From Diphasiastrum complanatum (Eukaryota > Streptophyta > Lycopodiopsida > Lycopodiales > Lycopodiaceae): a DNA stretch of 64,000 nt. This document shows, piece after piece, positions 25,817 through 62,976 of this stretch (within the stretch, counting starts at the first letter, position 1; each line of letters starts with the position of its first letter). The stretch lies in NCBI GenBank assembly GCA_029204225.1, contig CM055104.1, positions 54,168,538 to 54,232,537 on the forward strand, in the 5' to 3' direction. The notes under the pieces are model-generated. The model saw only the letters and a list, made by a program, of their open reading frames with translations, had not been told where the DNA came from and did not search any database. The translations under genes and the position numbers were made by a program.

Positions 25817-25818
<2 letters not shown>

Positions 25819-26315: not shown

Positions 26316-26320
26316 GTGGC
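26316..26320. repeat. Target site duplication GTGGC (left), copia copy A
   Basis: GTGGC directly precedes the 5' LTR and is repeated exactly after the 3' LTR at 32479-32483, the 5-bp duplication made by copia integrase. Confidence 0.95.
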
Positions 26321-27002: not shown

Positions 27003-27014
27003 TAGTATCAGAGC
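27003..27014 (+). other. Primer binding site, copia copy A (one mismatch)
   Basis: TAGTATCAGAGC directly after the LTR. The canonical iMet-complementary sequence is TGGTATCAGAGC, present intact in copy B; here position 2 is G to A. Confidence 0.92.
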
Positions 27015-27813
27015 CTAAAGGCTGAAATGAGCTAAATCCTTGGTTTTCATTCAATTTGATCACAATTTTTGATCTAAATCTTGTGTAGATTGGATCTTAG
27101 CATCTAGTATTGATTCTAGAACTCAAAGTGAGTCAAATACATTTGAGATTGGTGTTGTGTGACTTCATTTGTAGGTGTTTAGGTGTCTAAAACCAGAGGC
27201 AAAGTTGAATTCAATTCACATTACCAAGATAGCAAGTTTTGCTTGCTCCAAGCATTGATTTCTAAGCGAGTTTTGGAGGTGATTTCATAGAAAAGGCTTT
27301 CTAGCATTCAAGGAGAGGGAAGATCAGAGTTTTGGGGACTCTTCAAGGCTGTTCTAAGGTGTAGTAGACACCTCCTAAAGTGATTTAGGTTCAGTCCAAC
27401 CATTGCTTGACTTATGCACCAAATTAGATCAATTTTTCATCATTTTTGATCATTTTTTGCTTGTGATTGGATAGTAGATTGTGTTGCATCCTCATTAAGT
27501 TCCATTTAGATCTTTTACAAGTGATTTTGGAAGTATATTAGGTTGCTGAAATTCACTCTTGATCAGATCATTTGGAAGCTTTAATGTTCTTTATAGAAAG
27601 AGGGGCAATTCTACTAGTATTGTCTACTTCAATCAAGCAAGTGCATTGTTTCTAGTATTCTATGATTTGATTTTGTTAGAGATCATTCTTAGATCTTTAT
27701 AGGAAGTCTATTACTGATCTTTTCAGGTCCCTAAGAAGTGGGATAAGGTAGACCTTCAATCAAATCAATAGAAGTAACCTTCATTTGTGTCAAGTCCTTG
27801 ATTAGGAGACTAG

Positions 27814-30800
27814 ATGGCATCTATAAATGCATGTCTTTTGGATACTAATGAAAGGCTCAACAAAACTAACTATTCCATATGGAAAGTTAGAATGGAATCT
27901 ATAATGATCATTCAAGATCTGATGGAAATTGTAAATGGTAAGGAGGGTGAACCTATTCATCCTCAAGAAAAAGCCAAATACATCAAGAGGTGCAATGTTG
28001 CACTACATTGCATAAAAATGAATGTTGCAAATGAACTCTTAAGAGAGGTAGGAGATTGCACTTCAGCTCAAGATGCTTGGGAGACTTTGCAAAAGGTCTA
28101 TGAATCCAAGAACCAAACTAGAATGTTAGCTTTGAAGAATCAAATCTATAGAAGCTATCAAAAGAAAGGAGAGAGTGCACATACTTTTGTCCTAAGAGTA
28201 AAGGAATTGAACAAAGAGCTAGCCTTTATAGGTGACCCTATCAAGGATGAAGAGCTTGTTCAACTCATATTGAATGGACTAAGCTTTGAATTTGACAATT
28301 TGGTTCAGGGATATGCAATTATGGGTAAGCTACCCATACTTGAAGAACTCCAAGGCACACTCATGGCCGAGGAATCAAGAAGGAGCCAAATGCAAGAGAG
28401 GATGGATAGGCTTTCCATCCAAGGTGGAGATGACCAAGCTCTCTTCACCAAAGGCAAAGGCAAGTCCAAAGGCAAAGGATCAACATTCAAGAAGTCTACA
28501 AAGCTTGAGGATCAAGAAGGACCCCCAAAGGCATCTCCATCAACCACCAAAGTCAAGAAGGACAAATCAAAGGTGAAGTGCTACTATTGTAGCAAGATGG
28601 GGCATTATGCCTCAGAATGCTTCAAGAGGAAGCAAGATCAAAGCCAAGCCAACATGAGCAAAGAGGAGGAGGAGGAGAGTTCACATGAGGACTCTCTCAT
28701 GATGTCCATATTTTCTTCAACAAGCTTCAAAGGAGAAGATCCTTGGTGGATTGACTCGGGTGCTAGTTCACACATGACTAGTAAAAGGGAGTTTTTCTCT
28801 TCTCTCTTATCTTATGATGGACCTATAAAGTCTATGTATACAGCAAATGATGAAGCTTGTAAGATTGAAGGAGTTGGTAGCATTCCCCTTTGCTTAGGAT
28901 CTTCCAAAAAGATCAACATAGAAGGTGTTTTGTACATTCCTACAATAACAAAGAATCTACTAAGTGTTGGCCAAATGGTAGACAATGGTTTCAATGTTGA
29001 CTTTGCTTCAAATGAATGTTTCATCAAGAAGAAGGGTAAGATAGTGGCTAAGGGCACTAGACTTGGCAAACTTTATAAGCTGGATGCATTTGTGGATACT
29101 AATGTTGTCATGTTGGCCGAGAAGAGCAAGATATCTACCTTTACTTTATGGCACAAAAGACTTGGACATGTCAACTCGGGTTCCATGGAGGCTATGATCA
29201 AGGAGGGGTATGCTTTAGGCCTACCAAGGTCTATTGGGAAGGAAGACAAGGTTTGTGAAGCTTGTGCCTTATCCAAGGCACATAAGAAGGTGTTTCCTAA
29301 CTCCATCACAAAGTCATCTCATCCTCTTGAACTCATACACTCGGATGTGCACATTGCTAGCACCAAATCTAATGGAGGTTCATCCATGTTTTTAACCTTC
29401 ATTGATGACTACTCAAGATATTGTTGGGTGTTCTTACTTTCCTTCAAGTCTCAAGTATTTGATACTTTTGTAAAGTTCAAGTTGTTTGTGGAAAAGCATC
29501 ATAATCATAGCATCAAGATTCTTAGAAGTGACAATGGTGGAGAATTCATCTCCAATGAGTTCAAGGCCTTTTGTGAGGAGGAAGGGATCAAGAAAGAGAC
29601 TTCTTGTCCTTACACTCCTCAACAAAATGGAGTTGCTGAAAGAAGGAATAGAACATTATGTGAATGTTCTAAGGCTTTAAGAATAGATGCTTGTTTGCCC
29701 AAATCCTTTTGGGGTGAGTCTCTTGTATGTGCAAACTACTTGATGAATAGGGTGTCTTGCAAAGCAATTGAAGGCAAAACTCCTTATGAGATGTTGTATG
29801 GAAAGAAACCCAATCTTAATCACTTGAAAGTTTTTGGGTGTATATGTTATGTGCATGTGCCATTGGAAACAAGAACCAAGGAGGATCCATCTTCCACAAG
29901 AGGGATCATGCTTGGATATGCAAGCTCAAGCAAGGGCTACAAAGTCTATCTCCCATCCTTGAACAAATTTGTTGTTTCAAGGGATGTCATCTTTGATGAA
30001 CATCATATGCATATGCTTGAAGAAGGCTCAAGTGCTCCAAAAATCAAGAAGAAGATGGCCGAGGAGCAAGATCTTGGTTTTGAGGAGGAGCTCATGGAGG
30101 AGCAAGCACCAAACCCACCTATCACACCAAGGAAATCTTCAAGGGCAAAAGTGGAGCCATCAAGGCTCACATATCAAGGCAAAGGACAGCAAGTTGAGGG
30201 TATCTCATCCACTTCTTATGCTTTATCTAGTTTTGAAGAACCGTCTAATGTTGAAGATGCATTGAACTCCAAAGAATGGTATAAAGCTATGTTGGATGAG
30301 TATGATGCCTTGATTGAGAATGAAACTTGGTTGCTTGTTGAGAGACCTCAAAGGAATGTAATAGGATGCAAGTGGGTCTTCAAGCTTAAGATGAATACAA
30401 ATGGGAGTGTTAACAAACATAAAGCAAGATTAGTTGCAAAAGGTTATGCTCAAGAGAGAGGGATAGACTATGAGGAAACTTTTGCACCCGTGGCCAAGAT
30501 GGTCACAATAAGACTAATCATTGCACTTGCATCACATTTTGGATGGATTCTATGTCAAATGGATGTCTCTAATGCTTTCTTGAATGGTTTTTTGGAAGAG
30601 GATATCTATATGGAGCAGCCACAAGGGTTCATCAAGCATGGAATGGAGAACAAAGTATGCCATCTCCAAAGAAGCATCTATGGCTTGAAGCAAGCCTCGA
30701 GATCTTGGAATTCAAGACTACATTGCTATCTTATTTCACTTTCTTTTGTTCAAAGTGAATATGATCCCACTCTTTACATTAAGTTTGATGATGTTGGTAT

Positions 30801-31782
30801 TGTACTTTTACTCATTTATGTAGATGACATCATCATTAGTGGAAATAGTGTTGATGGTATTGAAAAAATCAAGATAGATCTATCCTTAGAGTTCAAGATG
30901 GTAGATCTAGGGTGTCTTCACTTCATCTTAGGCATAGAAGTACTTAGAGGGTCTGATTTTATCTTTATAAGTCAAGTAAACTATGCTCAAAGTCTTTTGA
31001 AGAAGTTTAAGATGGAAGTATGCAAAAGTGTTGACACACCAATGGAGCAAGATGTAAAAGTGCCAAATGAAGATGATGAAAGATCCTTCATGGACATCAC
31101 TTTGTTTAGGCAGCTTATAGGTTCCTTAATGTGGATCACTATAACTAGACCAGATCTTAGCTTTAGTGTATGTAGGTTGAGCCAATCCATGCAAAAGCCA
31201 TTGAATATCCATTGGAAAAAGGCTAAGAGGATTCTAAGATACATCTCGGGTACATTGGATTTTGGGATTCTATATAGAGGAGATGTGATTAACCTTCATG
31301 CATTTAGTGATTCAGATTTTGCAGGGGACAAGAGGGATAGGAAATCAACAAGTGCCTATTCAACTTTCATAGGAGAAGGTGTGGTTTCATGGCTTTCAAA
31401 AAAGCAAGAAACTATATCTCTATCTTCAACCGAGGCCGAGTACAAAGCTTTGACAACCACTACAAAGGAGGTACTTTGGATCAAGAGATTATTGGTGGAA
31501 CTAAATATCATGGATTCAGAGGAGGCACCAATCATCTACAATGACAATATATCAGCCCAACACCTTGCATCTAACCCAATCTTCCATGCAAGATCTAAGC
31601 ACATTGAGATATGCCATCACTTTGTGAGAGAAATGGTGCAAGCCAAGGAGATTGCTTTGGAGCATGTTCCAAGCAATGAATGTGTAGCTGATCTACTTAC
31701 TAAACCACTTCAAAAGACACCTTTTATGAAGTTCAGATCATCACTTGGAGTGATTAGTAAAGCAATGATTGAACCAAGCTAG
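27814..31782 (+). CDS. Copia gag-pol polyprotein (copy A), intact
   Basis: One 1322-residue frame in the normal copia order. Gag (about 1-250, UBN2-like, DAWETLQKVYESKNQTRMLA) ends in the zinc knuckle C256-x2-C259-x4-H264-x4-C269. Protease has DSGASS with catalytic D314. The pre-integrase zinc domain includes H447 and CEACALSKAH. The integrase triad is D511, D573, E609 with exactly 35 residues between the last two. Reverse transcriptase has YVDD (D1004, D1005) and GLKQASRSWNSR. RNase H starts with D1166 in FSDSDFAGD, followed by SSTEAEYKAL and HARSKHIE. All catalytic residues looked for are present. It copies element RNA into DNA in cytoplasmic particles and inserts it in the nucleus. Start chosen at the ATG of MASINACLLDTNERLN, conserved in all three copies; the stop is 14 bases before the 3' LTR. 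Confidence 0.97.
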   Translation: MASINACLLDTNERLNKTNYSIWKVRMESIMIIQDLMEIVNGKEGEPIHPQEKAKYIKRCNVALHCIKMNVANELLREVGDCTSAQDAWETLQKVYESKNQTRMLALKNQIYRSYQKKGESAHTFVLRVKELNKELAFIGDPIKDEELVQLILNGLSFEFDNLVQGYAIMGKLPILEELQGTLMAEESRRSQMQERMDRLSIQGGDDQALFTKGKGKSKGKGSTFKKSTKLEDQEGPPKASPSTTKVKKDKSKVKCYYCSKMGHYASECFKRKQDQSQANMSKEEEEESSHEDSLMMSIFSSTSFKGEDPWWIDSGASSHMTSKREFFSSLLSYDGPIKSMYTANDEACKIEGVGSIPLCLGSSKKINIEGVLYIPTITKNLLSVGQMVDNGFNVDFASNECFIKKKGKIVAKGTRLGKLYKLDAFVDTNVVMLAEKSKISTFTLWHKRLGHVNSGSMEAMIKEGYALGLPRSIGKEDKVCEACALSKAHKKVFPNSITKSSHPLELIHSDVHIASTKSNGGSSMFLTFIDDYSRYCWVFLLSFKSQVFDTFVKFKLFVEKHHNHSIKILRSDNGGEFISNEFKAFCEEEGIKKETSCPYTPQQNGVAERRNRTLCECSKALRIDACLPKSFWGESLVCANYLMNRVSCKAIEGKTPYEMLYGKKPNLNHLKVFGCICYVHVPLETRTKEDPSSTRGIMLGYASSSKGYKVYLPSLNKFVVSRDVIFDEHHMHMLEEGSSAPKIKKKMAEEQDLGFEEELMEEQAPNPPITPRKSSRAKVEPSRLTYQGKGQQVEGISSTSYALSSFEEPSNVEDALNSKEWYKAMLDEYDALIENETWLLVERPQRNVIGCKWVFKLKMNTNGSVNKHKARLVAKGYAQERGIDYEETFAPVAKMVTIRLIIALASHFGWILCQMDVSNAFLNGFLEEDIYMEQPQGFIKHGMENKVCHLQRSIYGLKQASRSWNSRLHCYLISLSFVQSEYDPTLYIKFDDVGIVLLLIYVDDIIISGNSVDGIEKIKIDLSLEFKMVDLGCLHFILGIEVLRGSDFIFISQVNYAQSLLKKFKMEVCKSVDTPMEQDVKVPNEDDERSFMDITLFRQLIGSLMWITITRPDLSFSVCRLSQSMQKPLNIHWKKAKRILRYISGTLDFGILYRGDVINLHAFSDSDFAGDKRDRKSTSAYSTFIGEGVVSWLSKKQETISLSSTEAEYKALTTTTKEVLWIKRLLVELNIMDSEEAPIIYNDNISAQHLASNPIFHARSKHIEICHHFVREMVQAKEIALEHVPSNECVADLLTKPLQKTPFMKFRSSLGVISKAMIEPS

Positions 31783-31796
31783 ATAGTGAGGAGGAG

Positions 31797-32478
31797 TGTT
31801 AAAAATTCACAATTCTAGCTTGACTAGTTTTGGTCATATGACTTGTAAATAGTTAGATGGTCATGATGTGGCTTGTCACACGTGCCAAATAGCATAGGAT
31901 TCCATTCATAAGGATGTTCTCAAGTAGACCTAAGTGTTAGAACCTTTGGAATGAGTCCAAATTATGCTTAGATACAAGGGAGAAAAAATAGGAGCTATTT
32001 TTGGTAATTTTTGCATTGTTGAGGGATCTCCAAGATTCCAACCCTAACTTGGTAGGGATGAAAGATCCACCAAAATTAGCATTAGGGATAGGTTTAGGGC
32101 TACTCATACCTGCCCAAAACCGTGATGGATCATGTATATATAGGTGATGATATCTCACCAAAATCAATCAAGCAATTTCATGTTTTTTCTCTCATAATGG
32201 TGCAATTGCTCTCTATGTTCATAATTGTTTGAGTACTTGTGATTACTAATGATTATAGGATTGAATGTAGGTCTGGTGTACAGTACTCAGACTGTGGGAG
32301 GCCGTACTTTCACACGTGTGAAACCTTCTTCAAGGATTTGGGCCATTTAGTGAGGTTCAAGCATAGATTTTTGATGGATTTTGATGGTTCAACTTGTGCT
32401 AATCTTATGAAATCATAATCTATTGTTTCCCTCATCATTTCAAGTGTTTTAGGATCCTTATTTGCTGTAATTTTTATA
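31797..32478 (+). repeat. 3' LTR, copia copy A
   Basis: 682 bp, colinear with the 5' LTR without gaps; the last dinucleotide is TA in place of CA. It is preceded by the polypurine tract GTGAGGAGGAG. Confidence 0.97.
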
Positions 32479-39060: not shown

Positions 39061-39545
39061 GCAACATGCAAAGTAGCTTACTTGATCTACACATGTCTAG
39101 GTAATTTTGAGAGTTGACATGCAGTACATGCAATATCCATGCATGCAGTTTTACATGTGGATCCTTGATAGTTGAGTTAGCTAAGTAAAGTGGACTTTCC
39201 ATGCAATTCGAACCTCTTTGATATAGGAAAACTTTGGCTTGTTTTGCCACATTGTGAATATTGAGATTTTGGTGATTTTGGCTCATTCTCTCTCTAATTG
39301 AGTTTTTGGTGTTGATTTTCTCTCTCTACCTGAGAGCAAGCTGTTTTCTCCATAGTGAGCACTTAGAATATTTTCTGCTATCCATTTCTCATCGTAAAGA
39401 GTTAGTTTTCTCAGTCTGTTGTATGCCATTGTGCTTTTGACTTGGAAATTTCGAGTAATCTATTCATTGGTCAATCTTGTACAATCATAACACCTCATAA
39501 AGATCCAGTAAGGTGTGGTGAAGTTCACACATGCTAAAAACTTCA
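39061..39545. other. No gene seen
   Basis: Spacer between the copia fragment and the downstream end of the minus-strand transposase-like gene. Nothing recognisable. Confidence 0.4.
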
Positions 39546-40880
39546 CAAAGAGTCCAAACATGCACATTTTTCAAGGGAATAGACAATACTGGCTTCCAGT
39601 TTGGATTTGCATTTTCTCTAGTAATTTTTGTATTTCTAGTTACATCTTTTGTCATTTTCATGCAGTATAAACAAGGATGTTTAGATGTAGCACTGTGAGA
39701 GACATTATACATGTATTTCAATGTTTTTAAATTACCTACTAAGTGCCATTCAACTTTGAAGTCTCCAACTCCTAGAACATTGAGAAATCCTCCTTCCATA
39801 TGGTCCTTGATGATCCTAGGGTAAGATGTCCTAGAGAATATATCGTGATTCTCCTTCAGTACCTGTCCAATGAATAAAACCAACTTAGTTAATAAACCTA
39901 GGTAAGGAATAAAACTTAGTTAATAAAGAAAATAATTACCTGAAAAGCTGCCAACCACCATATATCATTTTTGGACTAGACACTAAATCTGAAGTCTCCT
40001 TGTTCCACTGTTTGTGATAGTGCACCATTCATGAGAGTTATACTAACTCTCTCCATCTTTTGCCCTTTCACAATCTCTGACTCATCTAACTTAAGTACTA
40101 TGATTATTTTACCATTCACCTTTTTTAAGGTTATATCATAAAATGTGACCATGTATTTTAACAAATGATTTAGATCAACAAAGAAGTTGTTTGATGAATT
40201 ATATGATATGGATCTTCCATCAGTTTCATACACTTCCTCAATATGAAATGGAGTACCAATGCTTTTATGCATACTTAAGTTTAATGTATTTCTCTCTGTC
40301 TTCAAGTGATATGACCTAGAGATAGGGACTTTTCTAATTTGAACTTGCTTAAAAGCATCCCTAATAAGTTGAAATATTGTTGAATATGCTTCTTTGCTAA
40401 TACTAGCAAAATCACAGGCACCCTGAACTATAGTCTTATCTAAATTTTTTTGAATGTCTAGCATCAAAGACTCTGGAATTTTGGACTTTACATTGGAACT
40501 CCTATTGTTCATCATGATACACTCAATGGATTTGCTTATCAATATTGAGCCCAACGACATTCCAATTGATGCATTGTCCTTTATATTCTGATGAGCTACT
40601 AATGCAAATCTAGAAAAAAAACAAGATAGTGAGCATAATAGCACATTAGTAGATATAAAACCATATGTCATTAATCAAGTTACAAAAAATCAGAGTATGC
40701 TTGAATGTTTAAATTCTTCTATTTTGATAACCTCCTTTTGAAAGGGTCTGAATATCCTTGCAACTTTGCTGCTTTCGCTTCTTACTCCTAGTCTCCTTCT
40801 TAGCCTCTTCCACATCCTTCAATAATTGCAAGTTTTCCATATGCATAGATTGTAAGATTAATTGCATTTGATCTAGTTAT
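39546..40880 (-). pseudogene. Transposase-like gene of unnamed family, copy 1
   Basis: Minus-strand exons. About 40860-40725 carries a Lys/Glu/Gln-rich helix (MHMENLQLLKDVEEAKKETR, SKKRKQQ). 40671-39976 is a 231-codon frame, including FFVDLNHLLKYMVTFYDITL, IIIVLKLDESEIVKGQKMER, VSITLMNGALS, then a stop (TAG) before WWLAAFQ. An intron of GT..AG type (about 39944-39866) is followed by 39865-39546: VLKENHDIF, VEWHLVGNLKTLKYMY, ATSKHPCLYCMKMTKDVT, NPNWKPVLSIPL. Copy 2 at 54.4-56.1 kb matches it closely at protein level and has the intron at the same place. The G-x-LK / CLYC pattern recalls DDE-like transposase ORFs of animals and plants, but I cannot name the family. Similarity to copy 2 ends at about 39546. 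Confidence 0.65.
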
Positions 40881-49254: not shown

Positions 49255-49922
49255 TTGAAGAAACAAAATGTTTCTAGTGCCAAAGCTTTGCTAGCTTTCA
49301 ATCTTGAGTTTTTGACAAAAGATGACACGACACGAAATCAGTCGTGCTCCATGAACAACTAAGAAGGTCAGCCAAATACCATAGGGTACAAATATTTGAT
49401 CAAATATCATGACATCAACAGAAGTACTCTAGATCATGGCTAATCTGTCACTCTTGTAATTCGTGATTAGTTGCAGATGTTTAATCTTTCTAATCTGTAA
49501 GTTACACGACACGGTAGAAAAAATTCGCAAACTATATACTTTTTGTTTGATGCATAATACTAAGCTAGTAAGAAAGACAAGAAGTCAGAAGACGAAAAAT
49601 ACAGAATACATGTCCGTCTATGAGCGAGACAATTTTGTAGAGGATCTGTAGATCTAGAAGTCCGCTAGTAAGCAAGACATTATTCGTGAGATAACTGTAT
49701 TTCTCTCATGCCAATGCACTGCGTGGATTTGTCATGCAGTGCTTGAAAAATAAAAAAATCAATAGATAATATTGTAACTGTTATGCACATATTAATCTTT
49801 ATGATTGTATGATCTCGAATGTATTTTTGTCTGTTACTATTCGTGTGTCTGATTCACTTGTTCATTCAATTTCGCACATTGGTTTGATATTGTTGAATGT
49901 TATATTAATCTGTTAATGTAGA
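49255..49922. other. No gene seen
   Basis: Unrelated sequence beginning exactly where the truncated LTR stops, running to the 3' end of the histone-like gene. It includes a near-repeat AGATCTAGAAGTCCGCTAGT / GTCTATGAGCGAGAC and nothing coding that I recognise. Confidence 0.4.
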
Positions 49923-51956
49923 TCAGCAGTGTCTATCTACTATAATCTCGCCTTCCTCTGTTTCGGGAAGGGCCTCAATGCCTTTTAAGACAAGAGGACT
50001 CTCTGTTATAATATCACCTTCCCAGTGTATTAGGAAGGACTTCTATTCCTTTTTTATCATATATAATAAGATCTGCATCCTGAGCAATCTGAAAGGCTGT
50101 TAAAGTAGGAGCAGCTTGCCTTTGAGGGCCCTCGATCTCAAGTGCAACGCTTACACCGTTCTGGGCATAGGTTCTGATCAACTCTTGCCGAAATATATAT
50201 ACATCGTCAGGAGTATACGCCTCAAGAGTGAACTGTCAACACAAAACACGAGAATCAGCAAATTACAAACAATGATAGTAAAAAAATATGAATCAGAATG
50301 AAATGAACTACAAATGAGCAGAATATCACATTTTTAATATCTACATCCACTTGTAAATTATACCACTCAAAAAATAACTTTGTATTGTATAGGACGAACC
50401 ATGCAAAACTAAAAATGTTTTTTTGTTGTACACACTGCATATATAGAACAAAAACTAGTAATATTATATTAGAAAATTTATTTATGCTATGATGATAGAT
50501 TTGAACTAAAAAGAAATACATGCATATCAGAGATAAATTGAATATACCTTGAGAGATCTAATGGTTATCTCTCCAATTGAGGTTGCCGTTGTTGGTATCC
50601 CAAACAACATTATGAAGTAGAGAATCAAATTCTCTGTGTATTTGCAGCTGAGTTTAATTTTACACATAAAAAATTTGATACTCCCTCCTTATTTATCTTT
50701 ACAGAAAGAATGTTCAGGCTCCAATGCCGACTACAACAACCAAAATACAAATATCAATAAATCCATACTTATAAAAGCAATGCTGCATGCAACAATCCAG
50801 ATTAAAGCAACAAAAATAAAAGAGCAATCCTTACTTATTTTCATATGGAATCAAATAAAATTTCGCCATAGGTTTGCATTCGATAAAATATACAGCCTTC
50901 TCAAAATTGGCTTCTTTTGCCTTTATCGCTCCCATGAAAAAAGGACTAACAACAAAAACTATACCATGGGAATCGGAACTAATACTATTCTGCAAAAAAG
51001 ATACTTCGGCTTCTACTATTACATTTTAATTTATGAAGTTTTACCTTTTAGCTCGGCACAAAATTTGGACCTAATCTAAAGCTTTTACGTGAATTCGGAA
51101 GAAAAAAATCAAAAAAATTGTTGAGAAGATCAATTTTATTAGCTAGGTAGGCCTCGTACTGGTTATAATGGTCAGAATCAAAATAAACTTCGACATGATC
51201 GTATGGAATTCTTACAACAAGATTATGTAAAGGAACAAAAGAAGTAGATACAATATTTATAGATTTCTCTGTTATTTTGTCGAGCTCCTCTTGGGTAATC
51301 AACACTTTTGGTGAAGAAATCTGCTGAGGAGCTAGACGAATAACAGGAAGAGGAAGGGGCAAAGATTCTCGATCTGAATCAGATTCTCCAACATCTGACT
51401 CAGAGCTCAGAACGATCCGGGGTCTCTTGGCTGGGATAACTCTAGGAGGAAGGGAAGCAACTGGCCTTTGAGATCCAGCCTTCTTGGGGACAGGCTGCTT
51501 CCTCTTCCTCCTAGAGGTAGTCAACAAGTTGGTTCTATTTAGAGGCATGTCTTTTGAAGTGTTGGCGTTATCAACATGTAGACTAGAAAAACGGTCCCTA
51601 AGTCTTCGAAGAATGACGAAATCTTTTGGCATGATGGTGACACACTTACCATGCATTGTCAAAAGACAAGTATCCTCAAAAAACTGGGATACAAAATCTT
51701 CTGCAGCACTTTGTAAGGCCTGTATGGCTGTCACGGCAAACCGAACATTCAGCCCAAGTGACAGAGTGACATTCCTTACAAATCGGCTGAAAGGTGCTCT
51801 AGGGATCAACAGTTCAGTTGATCTCTGAAGTTTTCTAATCTCCCTCAGCCAAACCTGCTTTCTGCCATGTCTACGGCCAGTACCAGGGGAAACACGAGCA
51901 TGGGATAGCTATACAGTGGTTATGGCATGGGTAGTGGATTCTGTTCTGGCCATCAT
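49923..51956 (-). pseudogene. Histone H3-fold protein (H3/CENH3-like) with a long novel C-terminal extension, recently broken
   Basis: Inferred exon 1 (51956-51045) starts MMARTESTTH. Counting from the second Met, residues 36-121 align with the H3 core: LREIRKLQRSTELLIP (alpha-N), FSRFVRN (alpha-1), LNVRFAVTAIQALQSAAEDF (loop 1/alpha-2), FFEDTCL, HGKCVTIMPKDF, RRLRD. LLIP, AAED and KDF recall CENH3; FEDT, TIMPKD and the short loop 1 recall canonical H3. A tail of about 180 residues follows in the same exon: RRKRKQ and PAKRPR (NLS-like), SSESDVGESDSDRE, then VVRIPYDHVEVYFDSDHY. Inferred exons 2 (50989-50835), 3 (50647-50548) and 4 (50232-49923) join in phase: NSISSDSHGIVFVVSP, NLILYFIMLFGIPTTATSIG, FTLEAYTPDDVYIFRQELIR, ending in a twofold KGIE..LP..GE.II repeat. 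Defects: TAG at codon 15, TAA two codons before the exon 1 donor, one frameshift near 50018. Intron 1 would be only 55 bp. A strong acceptor (TTTTTTTCTTCTCAG) precedes the start. Function of the extension unknown. Confidence 0.75.
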
Positions 51957-52020
51957 TCTGAGAAGAAAAAAATAACAAATTTTTTTTAAACAAAAGCGTA
52001 GGGAATAAATACCAGAATTG

Positions 52021-52175
52021 AATATCGGTTTCGAGCGCAAGATATACACAGAATATTTTAAGAAATGAGATGCGCGCTCGAAAGCAATATTGGACTATCA
52101 GCGGTATCGGTCTCGAGTGCACTATGAGAAGGCAGACGATTAAACGGTGAGAGGGCATGTTTGAGAGCGATATTG
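52021..52175. repeat. Two ~80-bp hairpin repeat units, left of the palindrome core
   Basis: A 20-base motif close to AATATCGGTTTCGAGCGCA occurs at 52021-52040 (+), 52071-52092 (-), 52103-52122 (+) and about 52156-52175 (-). Each +/- pair forms an inverted repeat spanning about 72 bases, and the two pairs are 82 bases apart. They lie in the presumed 5' untranslated part of the minus-strand H3-like gene. Confidence 0.85.
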
Positions 52176-52547
52176 AGAGCAAAAACCAAAAATCTTGCGA
52201 AAAAAATTGAAAATTCTGAGGTCTTCTATATACGAAATTTTTGCACGTGTGAAAAGACGGTCGAAGACACGTGTCGTCATCTGATTGGTCCATGTGGAAT
52301 GTCCGTATTGACAATGATGACCTGATTATGAGGCCACGTGGGTTGGAACGCATGCACGAAGCCTTTTCGACGCGTGTCATTCTCGCACGTGACAGATGTC
52401 AGATCAATCATTGTCTGTATGACGTATCAATTCTGACCAATCATACGTCAACATGTGTTCCTTTGTAACTCCTCCACACGTGCAAATTTTTTATAAACAG
52501 GTCATTTTCGGCTAGGATTTTCATGCAAAATTATGATTTCTTGGCCG

Positions 52548-52777
52548 AATATCGATTTCAAGTGCGCCATTTGCACTGATTACCCTTTGTTGACTAACTT
52601 GCATCTGGAACCGATACTGCCTCGGCCGGATCACATTCAGACGTGCCTTACATCTGGTTTCTTGTCTGATTTTTGTCACGCGCTCGGAGCCGATACTCTA
52701 ATTTTTAATATCTCTTTCGAGCACACATTGCCTTGAGTTTCTTGTTTGACCTGCAATTTGCGCCTGAGAGCGATATT
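52548..52777. repeat. Three ~80-bp hairpin repeat units, right of the palindrome core
   Basis: The same motif occurs at 52548-52568 (+), 52599-52618 (-), a degenerate copy about 52629-52648 (+), 52677-52698 (-), 52708-52727 (+) and 52758-52777 (-). Again each +/- pair spans about 70 bases and successive pairs start about 80 bases apart. They lie in the presumed 5' leader of the plus-strand gene, mirroring the left-hand units. Confidence 0.85.
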
Positions 52778-53025
52778 TGGAATTTTACATTTGTATTTTT
52801 TGTTTGAAATATCTAATTTGGATTCTAGTTTGCTTTCTTTTTTTCATGAATTTGGTATTACTGATAGTTTGGAGTATTTCAAATCTCTTTTTTCTCCTTT
52901 TCTTTTTATTTTTCCTTCTATTAGGGTCCTGGTGTGGAGGCATTTTTTGAAATAATCTCAAATTTAAGTCCCTGCTCAGTACTCCATTATTCAGATCTCA
53001 AAATAAGGACATGATTCATTATTAG

Positions 53026-54313
53026 GACCTGGTGGCAATCGACAAGCATATCTATAAAGCTAAGTTTGACAGAATGTTCACCAAGTTACATAATAATTTC
53101 AAGTCTGTCAATGAGTGCCCAATTCACAATAAAAAATGTAGATTTGTTGATTTTCAGTCTACATTTGTTTTTTTTCTTTTGTTAAATATTTCTGACGATT
53201 TAGAAGCTGTCCCTTCAACTTTTGAAGTTGCTTCTTCCAGTGGTACAAAGTCTAAAAAGTCAAAGATTGTAAATATAGATACTTTTTTTTTATTGATACG
53301 AGTATTAATTTAGATGATTGTTTAGATTTTAATCCTGCTCGACATAGGGCATCGTTTATAGGCCCTAGAACACCCACTACCCTTTCTCCTTCTGATAAAT
53401 CTTTAATCACTTTGCCTACTTATAATATAGATAATAATTCTTTTTTGACAATATCAGATCTTTTTTATTCCATTGAAGGTGAGACTCTTTGCATTTTGAG
53501 CAAAGAGCTTGATGAATTTTTGGATATAATTGATTTTGATGCTGATGATCTTCTCCTTGGTGTTGACGCTGTACATAATGATAAGTTTTATTCAGGGAAA
53601 GATTGCTTGAAAATGGCTGTGGAGGAGATGCGCAACAAAGAAGATGATCTACCTTCTAAGGAGGAGTTTCTCAGAATCCAAAGTAAACTTGGTTTTCCAC
53701 AACCAACTGTCTATTCACCAACAATATTGACATCGAAAGGTGGACATAATATTGATGGAGAGATAGGTAATCAGGGAAGACAAAGCCGAATGCGTAAGTT
53801 TTTGTATCTTATCATGTACTAGTACATACGTTATGTCAGATTATATACTGGATCTTACTTTGTTTTTTATCATTTCAGAAAATAATTTTCTTTGATGATT
53901 TCGCAATTCGTCGAGGAGGACAGGGATCTTCTATTGGAGACTTTTCAAGAGATCATGCACTGGAGCATCTGAAGTTCTTCAAGAATAATGAGATAAGTGT
54001 TGCCCATTCAAAGTTTCATCAACATGGTGAGACTATGATTATGGCAATCAAGGCACTATCTCATTTTCTTGGAGGACATAATTTCAATAAGGTGCATAAA
54101 ATAATTTTTGTAAAGAAAACCATTGTGGTTAGAATTTTAGGATATGGACCAGTGAAATTCATGTTCAGATAATCTCATTTTGTATTATATGCTGCTTACG
54201 TTGATCCGAGTAAGCATGGAAACTATGAGCTGTTGGATCCATACAAAAGAAAAATATTGTTGCATGATTCTAAGTTGCAACTTTCATTGGAAAAATTATC
54301 GGAAGCAATCTAG
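53026..54313 (+). pseudogene. Unrecognised gene divergently paired with the H3-like gene, broken
   Basis: A frame opens after TTATTAG (acceptor-like) at 53026 and reads DLVAIDKHIYKAKFDRMFTK, HNKKCRFVDFQ, then SSGTKSKKSKIVNIDTF. A T-run near 53284-53292 shifts the frame by one base; it continues SINLDDCLDFNPARHRASFI, GPRTPTTLSPSDKSL and then an acidic stretch LSKELDEFLDIIDFDADDLL to SRM (53793). A GTAAGT donor and TTTCAG acceptor (53794-53878, 85 bp) follow. The last part reads IIFFDDFAIRRGGQGSSIGD, HALEHLKFFKNN, HSKFHQHGETMIMAIKALSH, a stop, then YVDPSKHGNYELLDPYKRKI, ending at 54313. The phase across the intron does not fit, another sign of decay or misjoin. No family recognised. Any 5' exon between 52790 and 53026 was not found. 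Confidence 0.45.
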
Positions 54314-54374: not shown

Positions 54375-56139
54375 TATTGCCTACTAGCTTGTATAAATTT
54401 GCATGTTTTTTGAATTTTTTTATAATCCGTCGATTTTGTATTATGACGAATTTGGATTCTTTTGTAAGACCATTGAAAAAGTTGTAGTATATAGCTGTTT
54501 TTTATGCTAGTCCCACCATGTTGTGTACTTTTATGAAATGCCGCGCTTACTTGCCAATGAGAAATTTCCATTCCTTGTGATGACCATATCCTAAGACTTT
54601 CACTATGTCTTGCAAAGAATGTCGAATGATGTCGTAATATGTGTTGCATGTCATAAAAACATAATCTAAATCAGTACCAAAAGTGTCTAATTTAATTGCA
54701 CATATTTGTCTATCGTAGTGTAACATCGAAATCTTACCATATAATGTGTTATATGATCAACACCCCATGCACTTTGAACTGCATCCAAAAATTCACTGGT
54801 TGTTTCCTGTATCATTTGTACATCAGCATTTGAAGATTTATTTTTTCTCAAGTATTTCACCATGTTGTCTAACTTTTTCCAAACTTCTACTTTGTGTATA
54901 CGAGTAGAACCTTTTTCTTCAAAATCTTGAGTTGCTGCAATAATTTCTTTCCAAACCGTGTATTGAATCTTGGATTGTTTGCCAGAATAATTTGATAAAA
55001 ATCTTTGAGCTTTTGGATCCTCCAATGCTTGGCTTGCATGAAATATTTCCCGTTTTACCTGATAGCTTGTCATCTTTTTAACGTGGCCTTTATGTAAGTC
55101 TATTTTGGACAACACATCCTCTAATATGAAAATAGCTTCCTTCGTAGAACCCTTTGACTCGGAATTCCATGCAAACAAGATGTGAAGATATATTATTTTT
55201 TCTATAATATGCACCTCCGCATGCAATGTACAGATATGAACATTTCGAAGAGGAATCGGTAGTAGAGGTTTCCAATTAGGATCTTCTCGATCTCTTGATA
55301 TTCTTGTACTCCTTGTCATGTCTTTTGCTATTTTCATGCAGTACAGACAAGGGTGTTTAGAGTTAGCGCCTCTAATGCACAGAACATATATTTTATGGTC
55401 TTCAGATCTCCTCCTAAATGCCATTCAATGTTGAAAGTGCCAATTCCAAGAATATTGAGTGGAACTCCCTCCATGTGATTTTTTATGGTGGCAAGATATG
55501 ACATTCTATTAAATATCCATGAGAGAATGTCATGGTCTTCTTTCATCACCTATAAGAGAATACAAAAACGTGATTAGCCTCATAATATTAACATAGAGAA
55601 GATTTCCCAAATGGAATCCATATTCAAATGATTATCCCTATTTATTATGTGAAGGAACTGCTATACTTGAAATGCTGCCAACCACCAAATCTCATTTTCT
55701 GATTGAACACTGAAATTGAGGCCTTCTGAGTCTTCTGAATTTGAAAGTGCTCCATTCATGATCGCAAGACTGACTCTTTCTATTTTTTGTCCTTTTATAA
55801 TTTCAAACTCATCTAACTTGAGAACAACTATCAACTTGTTATTGACATTCTCATTTGTAATACCGTAAAAATTTATGATGAATGTTAGTAACTGATTAAT
55901 GTCAATAAATAAACTGTTGGAATTCTTATAAGCTAGACTTTCTCCTTTTGAGCAATACACTTCATTGATATGAGATGGATTACCAACTATTGTCTACATA
56001 ACTTGGTTTAACATGTCTTTTTTTTTTTTTAAGATGAAATGGTCATGGGATTGGAAACTTTTTAATATTTACCTATGCAAATGTCTCCTTTATCATCTTA
56101 AACATTGTTGCATATGCTTCCCTACGCACCAGTGAAGTT
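54375..56139 (-). pseudogene. Transposase-like gene of unnamed family, copy 2
   Basis: Paralogue of the gene at 39.5-40.9 kb, extending further 3'. In minus order: degraded 5' part up to 56139, where similarity to copy 1 stops at a copia LTR; LFIDINQLLTFIINFYGITN, VVLKLDEFEIIKGQKIERVS, IMNGALS, NEIWWLAAFQ, GT donor at about 55663. The intron ends at AG before VMKEDHDIL (about 55549), then FNIEWHLGGDLKTIKYMF, one frameshift, NSKHPCLYCMKIAKDMTR, NPNWKPLLPIPLRNVHICTL, HAEVHIIEKIIYLHILFAWN. A long helical part and GVDHITHYM follow before a GTAAGA donor (54737), then a last exon with DIIRHSLQDIVKVLGYGHHK and stops. The intron position is the same as in copy 1. A DDE-type transposase is my best guess for the family. 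Confidence 0.65.
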
Positions 56140-56786: not shown

Positions 56787-56818
56787 GCTTCAATCAGCAA
56801 CATACAATCCAAGATCTG
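56787..56818. repeat. First copy (left part) of a 75-bp in-frame duplication in copia family 3 gag
   Basis: GCTTCAATCAGC... up to the copia insertion; its right part resumes at 62982-63024. The second copy is 63025-63099. The two copies differ at one base (TTTCTAGC against TTTTTAGC). Confidence 0.9.
56814..56818. repeat. Target site duplication ATCTG (left), copia copy B
   Basis: ATCTG precedes the 5' LTR and is repeated at 62977-62981. Confidence 0.97.
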
Positions 56819-57500
56819 TGTTAAAAATTCACAATTCTAGCTTGACTAGTTTTGGTCATATGACTTGTAAATAGTTAGATGGTCATGATGTGGCTTGTCA
56901 CACGTGCCAAATAGCATAGTATTCCATTCATAAGGATGTTCTCAAGTAGACCTAAGTGTTAGAACCTTTGGAATGAGTCCAAATTATGCTTAGATACAAG
57001 GGAGAAAAAATAGGAGCTATTTTTGGTAATTTTTGCATTGTTGAGGGATCTCCAAGATTCCAACCCTAACTTGGTAGGGATGAAAGATCCACCAAAATTA
57101 GCATTAGGGATAGGTTTAGGGCTACTCATACCTACCCAAAACCGTGATGGATCATGTATATATAGGTGATGATATCTCACCAAAATCAATCAAGCAATTT
57201 CATGATTTTTCTCTCATAATGGTGCAATTGCTCTCTATGTTCATAATTGTTTGAGTACTTGTGATTACTAATGATTATAGGATTGAATGTAGGTCTGGTG
57301 TACAGTACTCAGACTGTGGGAGGCCGTACTTTCACACGTGTGAAGCCTTCTTCAAGGATTTGGGCCATTTAGTGAGGTTCAAGCATAGATTTTTGATGGA
57401 TTTTGATGGTTCAACTTGTGCTAATCTTATGAAATCATAATCTATTGTTTCCCTCATCATTTCAAGTGTTTTAGGATCCTTATTTGCTGTAATTTTTACA
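56819..57500 (+). repeat. 5' LTR, copia copy B
   Basis: 682 bp, TGTTAAAAATTC to TAATTTTTACA, with the same TATATATA and CACACGTGTG boxes as copy A. Confidence 0.97.
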
Positions 57501-57512
57501 TGGTATCAGAGC
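57501..57512 (+). other. Primer binding site (tRNA-iMet), copia copy B
   Basis: Perfect TGGTATCAGAGC directly after the LTR. Confidence 0.97.
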
Positions 57513-58311
57513 CTAAAGGTTGAAATGAGCTAAATCCTTGGTTTTCATTCAATTTGATCACAATTTTTTATCTAAATCTTGTGTAGATTGGATCTTAGCA
57601 TCTAGTATTGATTCTAGAACTCAAAGTGAGTCAAATACATTGGAGATTGGTGTTGTGTGACTTCATTTGCAGGTGTTTAGGTGTCTAAAACCAGAGGCAA
57701 AGTTGAATTCAATTCACATTACCAAGATAGCAAGTTTTGCTTGCTCCAAGCATTGATTTCTAAGCGAGTTTTGGAGGTGATTTCATAGAGGAGGCTTTCT
57801 AGCATTCAAGGAGAGGGAAGATCAAAGTTTTGGGGACTCTTCAAGGCTGTTCTAAGGTGTAGTAGGCACCTCCTAAAGTGATTTAGGTTCAGTCCAACCA
57901 TTGCTTGACTTATGCACCAAATTAGATCAATTTTTCATCAATTTTGATCATTTTTTGCTTGTGATTGGATAGTAGATTGTGTTGCATCCTCATTAAGTTC
58001 CATTTAGATCTTTTACAAGTGATTTTGGAAGTATATTAGGTTGCTGAAATTCACTCTTGATCAGATCATTTGGAAGCTTTAATGTTCTTTATAGAAAGAG
58101 GGGCAATTCTACTAGTATTGTCTACTTCAATCAAGCAAGTGCATTGTTTCTAGTATTCTATGATTTGATTTTGTTAGAGATCATTATTAGATCTTTATAG
58201 GAAGTCTATTACTGATCTTTTCAGGTCCCTAAGAAGTGGGATAAGGTAGACCTTCAATCAAATCAATAGAAGTAACCTTCATTTGTGTCAAGTCCTTGAT
58301 TAGGAGACTAG

Positions 58312-61300
58312 ATGGCATCTATAAATGCATATCTTTTGGATACTAATGAAAGGCTCAACAAAACTAACTATTCCATATGGAAAGTTAGAATGGAATCTAT
58401 CATGATCATGCAAGATCTGATGGAAATTGTAAATGGTAAGGAGGGTGAACCTATTCATCCTAAAGAAAAAGCCAAATACATCAAGAGGTGCAATGTTGCA
58501 CTACATTGCATAAAAATGAATGTTGCAAATGAACTCTTAAGAGAGGTAGGAGATTGCACTTCAGCTCAAGATGCTTGGGAGACTTTGCAAAAGGTCTATG
58601 AATCCAAGAACCAAACTAGAATGTTAGCTTTGAAGAATCAAATCTATAGAAGCTATCAAAAGAAAGGAGAGAGTGCACATACTTTTGTCCTAAGAGTAAA
58701 GGAATTGAACAAAGAGCTAGCCTTTATAGGTGACCCTATCAAGGATGAAGAGCTTGTTCAACTCATATTGAATGGACTAAGCTTTGAATTTGACAATTTG
58801 GTTCAGGGATATGCAATTATGGGTAAGCTACCCATACTTGAAGAACTCCAAGGCACACTCATGGCCGAGGAATCAAGAAGGAGCCAAATGCAAGAGAGGA
58901 TGGATAGGCTTTCCATCCAAGGTGGAGATGACCAAGCTCTCTTCACCAAAGGCAAAGGCAAGTCCAAAGGCAAAGGATCAACATTCAAGAAGTCTACAAA
59001 GCTTGAGGATCAAGAAGGACCCCCAAAGGCATCTCCATCAACCACCAAAGTCAAGAAGGACAAATCAAAGGTGAAGTGCTACTATTGTAGCAAGATGGGG
59101 CATTATGCCTCAGAATGCTTCAAGAGGAAGCAAGATCAAAGCCAAGCCAACATGAGCAAAGAGGAGGAGGAGGAGAGTTCACATGAGGACTCTCTCATGA
59201 TGTCCATATTTTCTTCAACAAGCTTCAAAGGAGAAGATCCTTGGTGGATTGACTCGGGTGCTAGTTCACACATGACTAGTAAAAGGGAGTTTTTCTCTTC
59301 TCTCTTATCTTATGATGGACCTATAAAGTCTATCTATACAGCAAATGATGAAGCTTGTAAGATTGAAGGAGTTGGTAGCATTCCCCTTTGCTTAGGATCT
59401 TCCAAAAAGATCAACATAGAAGGTGTTTTGTACATTCCTACAATAACAAAGAATCTACTAAGTGTTGGCCAAATGGTAGACAATGGTTTCAATGATGACT
59501 TTGCTTCAAATGAATGTTTCATCAAGAAGAAGGGTAAGATAGTGGCTAAGGGCACTAGACTTGGCAAACTTTATAAGCTGGATGCATTTGTGGATACTAA
59601 TGTTGTCATGTTGGCCGAGAAGAGCAAGATATCTACCTTTACTTTATGGCACAAAAGACTTGGACATGTCAACTCGGGTTCCATGGAGGCTATGATCAAG
59701 GAGGAGTATGCTTTAGGCCTACCAAGGTCTATTGGGAAGGAAGACAAGGTTTGTGAAGCTTGTGCCTTATCCAAGGCACATAAGAAGGTGTTTCCTAACT
59801 CCATCACAAAGTCATCTCATCCTCTTGAACTCATACACTCGGATGTGCACATTGCTAGCACCAAATCTAATGGAGGTTCATCCATGTTTTTAACCTTCAT
59901 TGATGACTACTCAAGATATTGTTGGGTGTTCTTACTTTCCTTCAAGTCTCAAGTATTTGATACTTTTGTAAAGTTCAAGTTGTTTGTGGAAAAGCATCAT
60001 AATCATAGCATCAAGATTCTTAGAAGTGACAATGGTGGAGAATTCATCTCCAATGAGTTCAAGGCCTTTTGTGAGGAGGAAGGGATCAAGAAAGAGACTT
60101 CTTGTCCTTACACTCCTCAACAAAATGGAGTTGCTGAAAGAAGGAATAGAACATTATGTGAATGTTCTAAGGCTTTAAGATTAGATGCTTGTTTGCCCAA
60201 ATCCTTTTGGGGTGAGTCTCTTGTATGTGCAAACTACTTGATGAATAGGGTGTCTTGCAAAGCAATTGAAGGCAAAACTCCTTATGAGATGTTGTATGGA
60301 AAGAAACCCAATCTTAATCACTTGAAAGTTTTTGGGTGTATATGTTATGTGCATGTGCCATTAGAAACAAGAACCAAGGAGGATCCATCTTCCACAAGAG
60401 GGATCATGCTTGGATATGCAAGCTCAAGCAAGGGCTACAAAGTCTATCTTCCATCCTTGAACAAATTTGTTGTTTCAAGGGATGTCATCTTTGATGAACA
60501 TCATATGCATATGCTTGAAGAAGGCTCAAGTGCTCCAACAATCAAGAAGAAGATGGCCGAGGAGCAAGATCTTGGTTTTGAGGAGGAGCTCATGGAGGAG
60601 CAAGCACCAAACCCACCTATCACACCAAGGAGATCTTCAAGGGAAAAAGTGGAGCCATCAAGGCTCACATATCAAGGCAAAGGACAGCAAGTTGAGGGTA
60701 TCTCATCCACTTCTTATGCTTTATCTAGTTTTGAAGAACCGTCTAATGTTGAAGATGCATTGAACTCCAAAGAATGGTATAAAGCTATGTTGGATGAGTA
60801 TGATGCCTTGATTGAGAATGAAACTTGGTTGCTTGTTGAGAGACCTCAAAGGAATGTAATAGGATGCAAGTGGGTCTTCAAGCTTAAGTTGAATGCAAAT
60901 GGGAGTGTTAACAAACATAAAGCAAGATTAGTTGCAAAAGGTTATGCTCAAGAGAGAGGGATAGACTATGAGGAAACTTTTGCACCCGTGGCCAAGATGG
61001 TCACAATAAGACTAATCATTGCACTTGCATCACATTTTGGATGGATTCTATGTCAAATGGATGTCTCTAATGCTTTCTTGAATGGTTTTTTGGAAGAGGA
61101 TATCTATATGGAGCAGCCACAAGGGTTCATCAAGCATGGAATGGAGAACAAAGTATGCCATCTCCAAAGAAGCATCTATGGCTTGAAGCAAGCCTCGAGA
61201 TCTTGGAATTCAAGACTACATTGCTATCTTATTTCACTTTCTTTTGTTCAAAGTGAATATGATCCCACTCTTTACATTAAGTTTGATGATGTTGGTATTG

Positions 61301-62280
61301 TACTTTTACTCATTTATGTAGATGACATCATCATTAGTGGAAATAGTGTTGATGGTATTGAAAAAATCAAGATAGATCTATCCTTAGAGTTCAAGATGGT
61401 AGATCTAGGGTGTCTTCACTTCATCTTAGGCATAGAAGTACTTAGAGGGTCTGATTTTATCTTTATAAGTCAAGTAAACTATGCTCAAAGTCTTTTGAAG
61501 AAGTTTAAGATGGAAGTATGCAAAAGTGTTGACACACCAATGGAGCAAGATGTAAAAGTGCCAAATGAAGATGATGAAAGATCCTTCATGGACATCACTT
61601 TGTTTAGGCAACTTATAGGTTCCTTAATGTGGATCACTATAACTAGACCAGATCTTAGCTTTAGTGTATGTAGGTTGAGCCAATCCATGCAAAAGCCATT
61701 GAATATCCATTGGAAAAAGGCTAAGAGGATTCTAAGATACATCTCGGGTACATTGGATTTTGGGATTCTATATAGAGGAGATGTGATTAACCTTCATGCA
61801 TTTAGTGATTCAGATTTTGCAGGGGACAAGAGGGATAGGAAATCAACAAGTGCCTATTCAACTTTCATAGGAGAAGGTGTGGTTTCATGGCTTTCAAAAA
61901 AGCAAGAAACTATATCTCTATCTTCAACCGAGGCCGAGTACAAAGCTTTGACAACCACTACAAAGGAGGTACTTTGGATCAAGAGATTATTGGTGGAACT
62001 AAATATCATGGATTCAGAGGAGGCACCAATCATCTACAATGACAATATATCAGCCCAACACCTTGCATCTAACCCAATCTTCCATGCAAGATCTAAGCAC
62101 ATTGAGATATGCCATCACTTTGTGAGAGAAATGGTGCAAGCCAAGGAGATTGCTTTGGAGCATGTTCCAAGCAATGGATGTGTAGCTGATCTACTTACTA
62201 AACCACTTCAAAAGACACCTTTTATGAAGTTCAGATCATCACTTGGAGTGATTAGTAAAGCAATGATTGAACCAAGCTAG
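58312..62280 (+). CDS. Copia gag-pol polyprotein (copy B), intact
   Basis: 1322 residues, colinear without gaps with the copy A polyprotein and differing at a small number of residues (for example A/I to Y/M in the first 40 residues, V to D in VDNGFNDDFAS, E to G in VPSNGCVAD near the C-terminus). The zinc knuckle at 256-269, protease D314, integrase D511/D573/E609, RT YVDD at 1002-1005 and RNase H D1166 are all kept. Same conserved ATG. The stop codon lies 14 bases before the 3' LTR. Gag and Pol are in one frame with no visible shift or stop between them, so protease must release all products from one precursor. Confidence 0.97.
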   Translation: MASINAYLLDTNERLNKTNYSIWKVRMESIMIMQDLMEIVNGKEGEPIHPKEKAKYIKRCNVALHCIKMNVANELLREVGDCTSAQDAWETLQKVYESKNQTRMLALKNQIYRSYQKKGESAHTFVLRVKELNKELAFIGDPIKDEELVQLILNGLSFEFDNLVQGYAIMGKLPILEELQGTLMAEESRRSQMQERMDRLSIQGGDDQALFTKGKGKSKGKGSTFKKSTKLEDQEGPPKASPSTTKVKKDKSKVKCYYCSKMGHYASECFKRKQDQSQANMSKEEEEESSHEDSLMMSIFSSTSFKGEDPWWIDSGASSHMTSKREFFSSLLSYDGPIKSIYTANDEACKIEGVGSIPLCLGSSKKINIEGVLYIPTITKNLLSVGQMVDNGFNDDFASNECFIKKKGKIVAKGTRLGKLYKLDAFVDTNVVMLAEKSKISTFTLWHKRLGHVNSGSMEAMIKEEYALGLPRSIGKEDKVCEACALSKAHKKVFPNSITKSSHPLELIHSDVHIASTKSNGGSSMFLTFIDDYSRYCWVFLLSFKSQVFDTFVKFKLFVEKHHNHSIKILRSDNGGEFISNEFKAFCEEEGIKKETSCPYTPQQNGVAERRNRTLCECSKALRLDACLPKSFWGESLVCANYLMNRVSCKAIEGKTPYEMLYGKKPNLNHLKVFGCICYVHVPLETRTKEDPSSTRGIMLGYASSSKGYKVYLPSLNKFVVSRDVIFDEHHMHMLEEGSSAPTIKKKMAEEQDLGFEEELMEEQAPNPPITPRRSSREKVEPSRLTYQGKGQQVEGISSTSYALSSFEEPSNVEDALNSKEWYKAMLDEYDALIENETWLLVERPQRNVIGCKWVFKLKLNANGSVNKHKARLVAKGYAQERGIDYEETFAPVAKMVTIRLIIALASHFGWILCQMDVSNAFLNGFLEEDIYMEQPQGFIKHGMENKVCHLQRSIYGLKQASRSWNSRLHCYLISLSFVQSEYDPTLYIKFDDVGIVLLLIYVDDIIISGNSVDGIEKIKIDLSLEFKMVDLGCLHFILGIEVLRGSDFIFISQVNYAQSLLKKFKMEVCKSVDTPMEQDVKVPNEDDERSFMDITLFRQLIGSLMWITITRPDLSFSVCRLSQSMQKPLNIHWKKAKRILRYISGTLDFGILYRGDVINLHAFSDSDFAGDKRDRKSTSAYSTFIGEGVVSWLSKKQETISLSSTEAEYKALTTTTKEVLWIKRLLVELNIMDSEEAPIIYNDNISAQHLASNPIFHARSKHIEICHHFVREMVQAKEIALEHVPSNGCVADLLTKPLQKTPFMKFRSSLGVISKAMIEPS

Positions 62281-62294
62281 ATAGTGAGGAGGAG

Positions 62295-62976
62295 TGTTAA
62301 AAATTCACAATTCTAGCTTGACTAGTTTTGGTCATATGACTTGTAAATAGTTAGATGGTCATGATGTGGCTTGTCACACGTGCCAAATAGCATAGTATTC
62401 CATTCATAAGGATGTTCTCAAGTAGACCTAAGTGTTAGAACCTTTGGAATGAGTCCAAATTATGCTTAGATACAAGGGAGAAAAAATAGGAGCTATTTTT
62501 GGTAATTTTTGCATTGTTGAGGGATCTCCAAGATTCCAACCCTAACTTGGTAGGGATGAAAGATCCACCAAAATTAGCATTAGGGATAGGTTTAGGGCTA
62601 CTCATACCTGCCCAAAACCGTGATGGATCATGTATATATAGGTGATGATATCTCACCAAAATCAATCAAGCAATTTCATGATTTTTCTCTCATAATGGTG
62701 CAATTGCTCTCTATGTTCATAATTGTTTGAGTACTTGTGATTACTAATGATTATAGGATTGAATGTAGGTCTGGTGTACAGTACTCAGACTGTGGGAGGC
62801 CGTACTTTCACACGTGTGAAGCCTTCTTCAAGGATTTGGGCCATTTAGTGAGGTTCAAGCATAGATTTTTGATGGATTTTGATGGTTCAACTTGTGCTAA
62901 TCTTATGAAATCATAATCTATTGTTTCCCTCATCATTTCAAGTGTTTTAGGATCCTTATTTGCTGTAATTTTTACA
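62295..62976 (+). repeat. 3' LTR, copia copy B
   Basis: 682 bp, TGTTAAAAATTC to TTTTTACA, following the purine tract GTGAGGAGGAG. Confidence 0.97.

Follow-up and report, generated by a model that had tools for sequence, protein, structure and literature searches.

A strongly diverged H3-type histone fold with a coding-like 181-codon C-terminal extension in Diphasiastrum complanatum

Analysis of a 64,000-nucleotide stretch of the Diphasiastrum complanatum genome (the window) revealed, on the minus strand, an H3-type histone fold that passes in one open frame into a coding-like C-terminal extension of 181 codons, together with an in-frame TAG that cuts the fold off from an H3-like start and an inverted duplication of the 5′ flank. 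The explanation that we favor, at about even odds when taken as a whole, is that this is a strongly diverged, lineage-specific variant of H3 that gained an extension of ~181 residues and would be transcribed from one half of a duplicated promoter, the copy in the window itself being more probably inactive than active. H3 is among the most constrained of proteins. A coding tail of 181 residues on a plant H3 would, if true, mean that the C-terminus of H3 can bear a module, and it would raise the question of whether that module works for centromeres, for gametes or for a selfish element. Even a dead copy would be a fossil of such a protein, whose intact relatives one should be able to find.

Histone fold and C-terminal extension

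The minus strand from 51908 to 51051 translates as a single open frame of 286 codons, which ranks third among the stop-free stretches of the window, behind two copia ORFs. Its histone fold (51597..51875, minus strand) was recognized by Pfam, PDB and Foldseek searches, alignments and AlphaFold2. Residues 12–104 of the ORF match the Pfam family Histone (PF00125) with E 2.2e-24 and 86.5 bits (cut-off 26.4), while a match to CENP-T_C stayed under the cut-off of that family. Searching the PDB with phmmer gave 178 sequences at E ≤ 0.001, and the 60 listed were all H3 or CENP-A chains or chimaeras of them, with H3.3 at the top (79.9 bits) and CENP-A close behind (79 bits). Judged by these matches, the fold is of the H3 type and does not belong to the core of H4, H2A or H2B. 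This bears out the first-pass annotation, which had aligned the frame to the H3 core (FEDT, VTIMPKDF) from the letters of the DNA and had named PF00125 as the family in which a histone match might be sought.

The fold is identical to plant H3 at 49 of 92 aligned residues and to five CENH3s at 44–49 over 89–98 residues, and the highest identity among the alignments made is 55/92 (59.8%), to protein P0146. When the window sequence is aligned with 31 chosen H3 rows, 24 columns of the resulting 32-row alignment are invariant, including His86 and Asp96, which we take to be H113 and D123 of the H3-H3′ interface; the position of H3 Arg116 is presumably the one occupied here by Cys. With the same alignment AlphaFold2 predicts the aN, a1, a2 and a3 helices at medium confidence (whole-model mean pLDDT 56.9), and a single-sequence model (pLDDT 39.9) was discarded as too poor. 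The top six Foldseek matches in the PDB are nucleosomal H3 or CENP-A chains, three of them at E ≤ 0.001. The codon-model score of the fold itself is weak (−4.3 to +2.3).

The C-terminal extension (51051..51593, minus strand) is coding-like by three measures. Not one of 5000 dinucleotide shuffles of the tail was free of stops (mean, 10.5 stops); the GC content falls from the first to the third codon position in the tail (0.50/0.39/0.33) and likewise in the fold (0.53/0.45/0.39); and the codon log-likelihood, from a model trained on the other ORFs of the window, is positive for the tail frame in each 120-base bin from 51640 to 51100 and negative for the other two frames, although this score is not independent of openness because stops are penalized in it. 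Hence the shuffles, the codon-position GC and the frame-specific scores together indicate that translation continues, or once continued, from the fold into the tail in the same frame. The tail contains two basic patches (51414..51515, minus strand), SRRKRKQPVPKKAGSQRP (51515–51462; ORF residues 132–149) and PAKRPRI (51434–51414; residues 159–165), which we take from their motif to be nuclear-localization-like, and an acidic Ser/Asp/Glu patch, SSESDVGESDSDRES (51363..51407, minus strand; residues 168–182), which is presumably CK2-site-like. Basic NLS-like and Ser/Asp-rich acidic patches had already been pointed out when the DNA was first read, and both are present. Toward the end of the tail, AlphaFold2 suggests at medium to low confidence (block pLDDT 36–74) a possible small folded module with the order helix-strand-strand-helix (residues 206–269; 51102..51293, minus strand).

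Relatives of the tail were sought in several collections. None was found in Pfam above cut-off, in NCBIfam with the full ORF, in PHROGs at E ≤ 0.1, or in a protein database searched with the tail region (proteins of ~157–500 residues), where 210 candidates included none at E ≤ 10. Two PDB matches to a phycobilisome linker (E 0.12 and 0.35) and a weak Pfam match to PTN13_u3 were treated as noise. At E ≤ 0.001 the full ORF gave 3679 protein matches and the fold 4878, and the best 120 of each were listed. All of these 240 listed matches have an H3 fold. Only two have at least 60 residues beyond the last detected fold, and in both of them this piece begins with further histone sequence, the longer non-histone end (P0154) being ~36 residues. 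P0001, which scored far above the rest in the full-ORF search, consists of several H3 copies in tandem. No orthologue, with or without the tail, occurs among the best 120 of the 4878 fold matches. Likewise, titles and abstract beginnings on H3 and CENH3 tails, fusions and captured histones showed no plant H3 that is greatly extended at its C-terminus, which is a weak absence because this literature was mostly non-subscription.

The window sequence resembles plant H3.1 and H3.3 in its H3 fold, MART start, loop-1 length, VTIMPKD and His113/Asp123, and it differs from them in its 49/92 identity, in a short N-tail that contains a stop and in the extension of 181 residues at the C-terminus. To our knowledge, it is mainly in H2A that histones bear large additional domains, in the form of macroH2A, where the extra domain is C-terminal. 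In the passage available of PMC3380720, macroH2A is given as a histone with a large extra domain; unlike the window ORF, in which the Pfam scan found no macro domain, it combines a member of the H2A family with a macro domain. The same source, as far as available, describes the H3 variants of Lilium generative cells as divergent plant H3s that cannot be clearly told apart from cenH3s (PMC3380720); in contrast to the window sequence, no long C-terminal module is mentioned for them there. A C-terminal extension is borne by the 167-residue H3 of the dinoflagellate A. monilatum (PMC4751559, in the part available), but this extension comes to ~30 residues by subtraction, the N-terminal part of the protein is mostly normal and the lineage is another one. 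It is the only H3 C-terminal extension of stated length in the passages of the literature that were seen.

The in-frame TAG and the state of the copy

The minus-strand reading from 51956 to 51048 starts with MMARTESTTHAITTV (51912..51956), an H3-like N-terminus that retains the MART start of H3 with Glu in place of Lys4, then meets TAG (51911–51909), continues as LSHARVSPGTGRRHGRKQVWLREIRKLQRSTELLIPRAPFSRFVRNV... (LSHARV...) and ends at TAA (51050–51048), with no other stop. The TAG (51909..51911, minus strand) separates MARTESTTHAITTV from the H3 fold, leaving no continuous frame from the Met start to the fold, and because the first in-frame Met 3′ of it falls inside the fold (LLTMHG), no in-frame ATG yields an intact fold. 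The first-pass annotation had described a frame open from MARTES through the core and for about 180 further codons, all in one exon. For the fold and the tail this is correct, while the MARTES start is severed from them. Its proposal of a divergent H3 variant with a novel C-terminal module agrees with the fold, with the signs that the tail is coding and with the lack of a related tail among the listed matches. As the TAG severs this start, the choice between a pseudogene and a small intron becomes the first question.

Because the start is cut from the fold, the copy in the window is probably inactive as written. The main competing view, that the gene is alive and that a tailed H3 variant is made today, the TAG being spliced out, read through or a sequencing error, seems to us rather unlikely. 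It has in its favor that a mechanical GT-AG search found a weak candidate intron of 60 nt (51855..51914, minus strand) and an alternative of 57 nt (51914–51858), either of which would drop the TAG and restore MARTESTTHAITT(Q)VWLREIRK in frame, that the TAG is the one stop between the start and the TAA, and that the TAG is followed by CTA, a 3′ context that is leaky for other stop codons. However, the candidate intron is short, is not AU-rich by eye and holds ARVSPGTGRRHGRK, which resembles the basic sequence of a histone N-tail and runs into WLREIRKLQ as RRRQG runs into WLKEIRKLQ in human CENP-A, and the divergent neighboring gene likewise shows a frame change. Directly upstream of the histone start, TTATTTTTTTCTTCTCAG looks by eye like a good splice acceptor, so a leader intron is possible.

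Further coding-like pieces, recognized as ORFs and by codon scores, follow in changing frames on the minus strand (49926..51025; pieces 50834–51025, 50017–50235 and 49926–50042) and are candidates for a link to the histone gene. The two pieces 50235–50017 and 50042–49926 seem to form a single frame interrupted by a one-base shift, because GIEVLPNT..EGDII and GIEALPETEEGEII repeat each other across the break. Family scans gave nothing above cut-off for those of the downstream pieces that they covered, and the PDB matches of 50017–50235 were no better than E 1.4. The frame changes suggest either decay or assembly errors, and both the TAG and the broken frames further downstream are as compatible with decay as with a living gene.

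Affinity to H3 and CENH3

A second alternative concerns the origin of the fold, which would be that of a diverged CENH3, working or retired, with a tail that recruits parts of the kinetochore. This we consider quite unlikely, although the fold has features of both groups. Its H3 marks are NVRF in loop 1, FEDT and VTIMPKD. LLIP, APFSR, AED and KDF are as in plant CENH3, and W and KLQ (in WLxEIRKLQ) and LLTxH are as in human CENP-A. Its ~50% identity to H3 is that typically found for cenH3 folds (PMC8015243 and PMC3156773, in the parts available). In contrast to CENH3 and CENP-A, its loop 1 is not longer, a long N-tail is absent and the extension is C-terminal. The length of loop 1 is that of H3, the five CENH3 folds being 1–3 residues longer, as the absence of the longer plant-CENH3 loop noted at first reading implied. 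This missing insertion is not an absolute argument against CENH3 because the loop 1 and N-tails of cenH3s are said to be "typically" longer than those of H3 (PMC8015243, in the part available).

The residues shared with CENH3 are more numerous than expected, since 16 of the 42 differences from plant H3 agree with one of the five CENH3s (6.6 expected; z 4.19). Such enrichment is real against this simple null, yet it is not specific because, among 40 other divergent H3s (those of 120 that align gap-free over at least 84 residues with at least 12 differences), one scores higher (4.34) and others come near (3.78 and 3.71). Nor do the phmmer scores separate H3.3 from CENP-A (79.9 and 79 bits). In a tree of 38 rows no branch is longer than that of the window sequence (2.4), which joins CENP-A, itself on a long branch, without starred support and lies on the same side as the five CENH3s, with forks of 93/80 and 50/85, neither of them starred. 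Its branch measures 2.4–3.2 changes per column across the trees and the tree program warns of long branches meeting. No starred set contains it. Once CENP-A is removed, it is placed nowhere in particular. AU tests reject neither a grouping with plant CENH3 (p 0.353) nor one with plant H3 (p 0.361). Of the early suggestion that the gene is possibly derived from CENH3, there remains a residue enrichment that is not specific to this sequence, and the AU tests reject neither origin.

The duplicated 5′ flank and the surroundings

The histone-like gene lies head to head with a coding-like region on the plus strand, and the two flanks, aligned outward from 52362/52363, are similar, with a local score of 146 against a null of 55.6 ± 9.0 (maximum 88, 300 shuffles). 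The left arm (51950..52362, minus strand) comprises CCAAT, ACACGTGT and TATA-like sites (52290–52226) and the leader, and the right arm (52363..52855, plus strand) reads outward; the set of TATA-like, CACGTG-type and CCAAT sites at 52226–52290 (minus strand) recurs in identical order at 52435–52500 (plus strand). The signal in the first 150 bp is 215 against 108.7 ± 14.5 (maximum 166, 300 shuffles), it is weaker at 150–330 bp (196 against 133.8 ± 16.1, highest shuffle 203) and at 330–420 bp (124 against 96.9 ± 12.7, maximum 139), and at 420–900 and 900–1500 bp it is at null level. An alignment of the whole arms (865 against 667 ± 34, maximum 757, 100 shuffles) is attributed to the inner part. 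We take this similarity to reflect an old duplication, in inverted orientation, of promoter and leader, from which the head-to-head gene pair would have arisen. Homology of the two genes past the 5′ flank was rejected, as similarity is at null level beyond 420 bp and the best peptide match has E 0.53. The promoter-like duplicated stretch that separates them spans 52219–52505. In the leaders a short GCGCTCGAAACCGATATT-like motif occurs in both orientations (52018–52039, 52073–52121, 52545–52566, 52679–52725 and 52759–52775), and some copies are ~80 bp apart; the motif might allow the leader RNA to fold into hairpins.

The divergent coding-like region (53140..54101, plus strand) was delimited by codon scores, with a GTAAGT donor near 53796, an acceptor and an exon at ~53880–54101. 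Its frame changes near 53260–53296, at a run of nine T near 53284. No Pfam or NCBIfam family matched it above cut-off, and no PDB match was better than E 1.4. EF-hand_7 (0.046) and RNA_bind (0.018), which pieces of it matched in Pfam, and phrog_30162 (E 0.034) were treated as noise.

The favored explanation, a lineage-specific H3 variant with a gained tail, would work as follows. One half of the old head-to-head duplicated promoter would drive transcription of the histone-like gene and the other half that of the unrelated neighbor. In the intact protein the H3 fold would serve for pairing with H4 and for entry into nucleosomes or into assemblies of H3 with H4. The tail of ~181 residues, with its NLS-like basic patches, its Ser-rich acidic patch and perhaps its small folded module, would leave at the end of alpha-3, close to the site where CENP-A exposes its own C-terminal tail, and would tether a further nuclear factor. 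A bolder form, in which the extension is a folded, lineage-specific effector module on the nucleosome, making the protein a macroH2A-like H3 that is co-expressed with a partner protein from the duplicated promoter, is speculative and, in our judgment, unlikely to be right.

An improbable alternative is that the locus belongs to a mobile element, or to an integrated virus, that had captured an H3 gene and has since decayed, with the divergent plus-strand gene as its partner. The surroundings are rich in transposable elements, the pair is divergent with inverted 5′ flanks, its proteins have no known family and frames are broken on both sides. A 31-nt direct repeat, 71% alike (49784–49814 and 54697–54727), brackets the pair, but it is short and weak and may be due to chance, and no other repeat listed does so. 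Moreover, a second copy was not found within the window, and the CCAAT, CACGTG and TATA sites of the 5′ flank we take to be those of a plant nuclear promoter. Histones, some of them long-tailed, are encoded by DNA viruses (PMC9145170, in the part available), whereas scans of IMG/VR, which detect close relatives only, found no relative of the histone-tail ORF or of the plus-strand ORF. A resemblance of the neighboring ORF 54690–55424 to viral L001 (27% over 63 residues) was put down to chance, as the ORFs of that contig look unrelated. Finally, the view that an ordinary H3 pseudogene is followed here by no more than UTR or chance readthrough, as the want of a homologue of the tail might suggest, is highly improbable and was dismissed on the shuffles, the codon-position pattern and the frame-specific codon signal.

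Several other features of the window were recorded. Two near-identical Ty1-copia elements (~26320–32478 and 56818–62974) each have an intact ORF of 1322 codons and are flanked by 300-bp repeats that are 99–100% identical, and hence they are probably recent; a partial, inverted third copy lies within 5185–8251. One coding family (SKHPCLYCMK...) is present in two minus-strand copies (39485–40671 and 54690–55993), 73–75% identical in two DNA pieces, which perhaps represent a mobile element; a Pfam scan gave no family above cut-off for the ORFs that it covered. The minus-strand ORF at 33785–34423 matches DUF4218 (E 3.9e-29), which we take to be part of CACTA-type transposons. At 12347–12484 there is a 16S rRNA fragment (98.7 bits to the bacterial SSU model), plastid-like by eye with some changes, which is probably plastid DNA in the nucleus; like the Ty1-copia and DUF4218 parts, it points to a plant genome. 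A cluster of long GA/AG microsatellites occupies 24005–25815, the bin 24001–26000 having a GC skew of 0.875, and at 16042–16297 a 55-bp minisatellite is repeated 4.6 times, its unit containing the inverted repeat CCTCCCGCCACGACGGGAGG.
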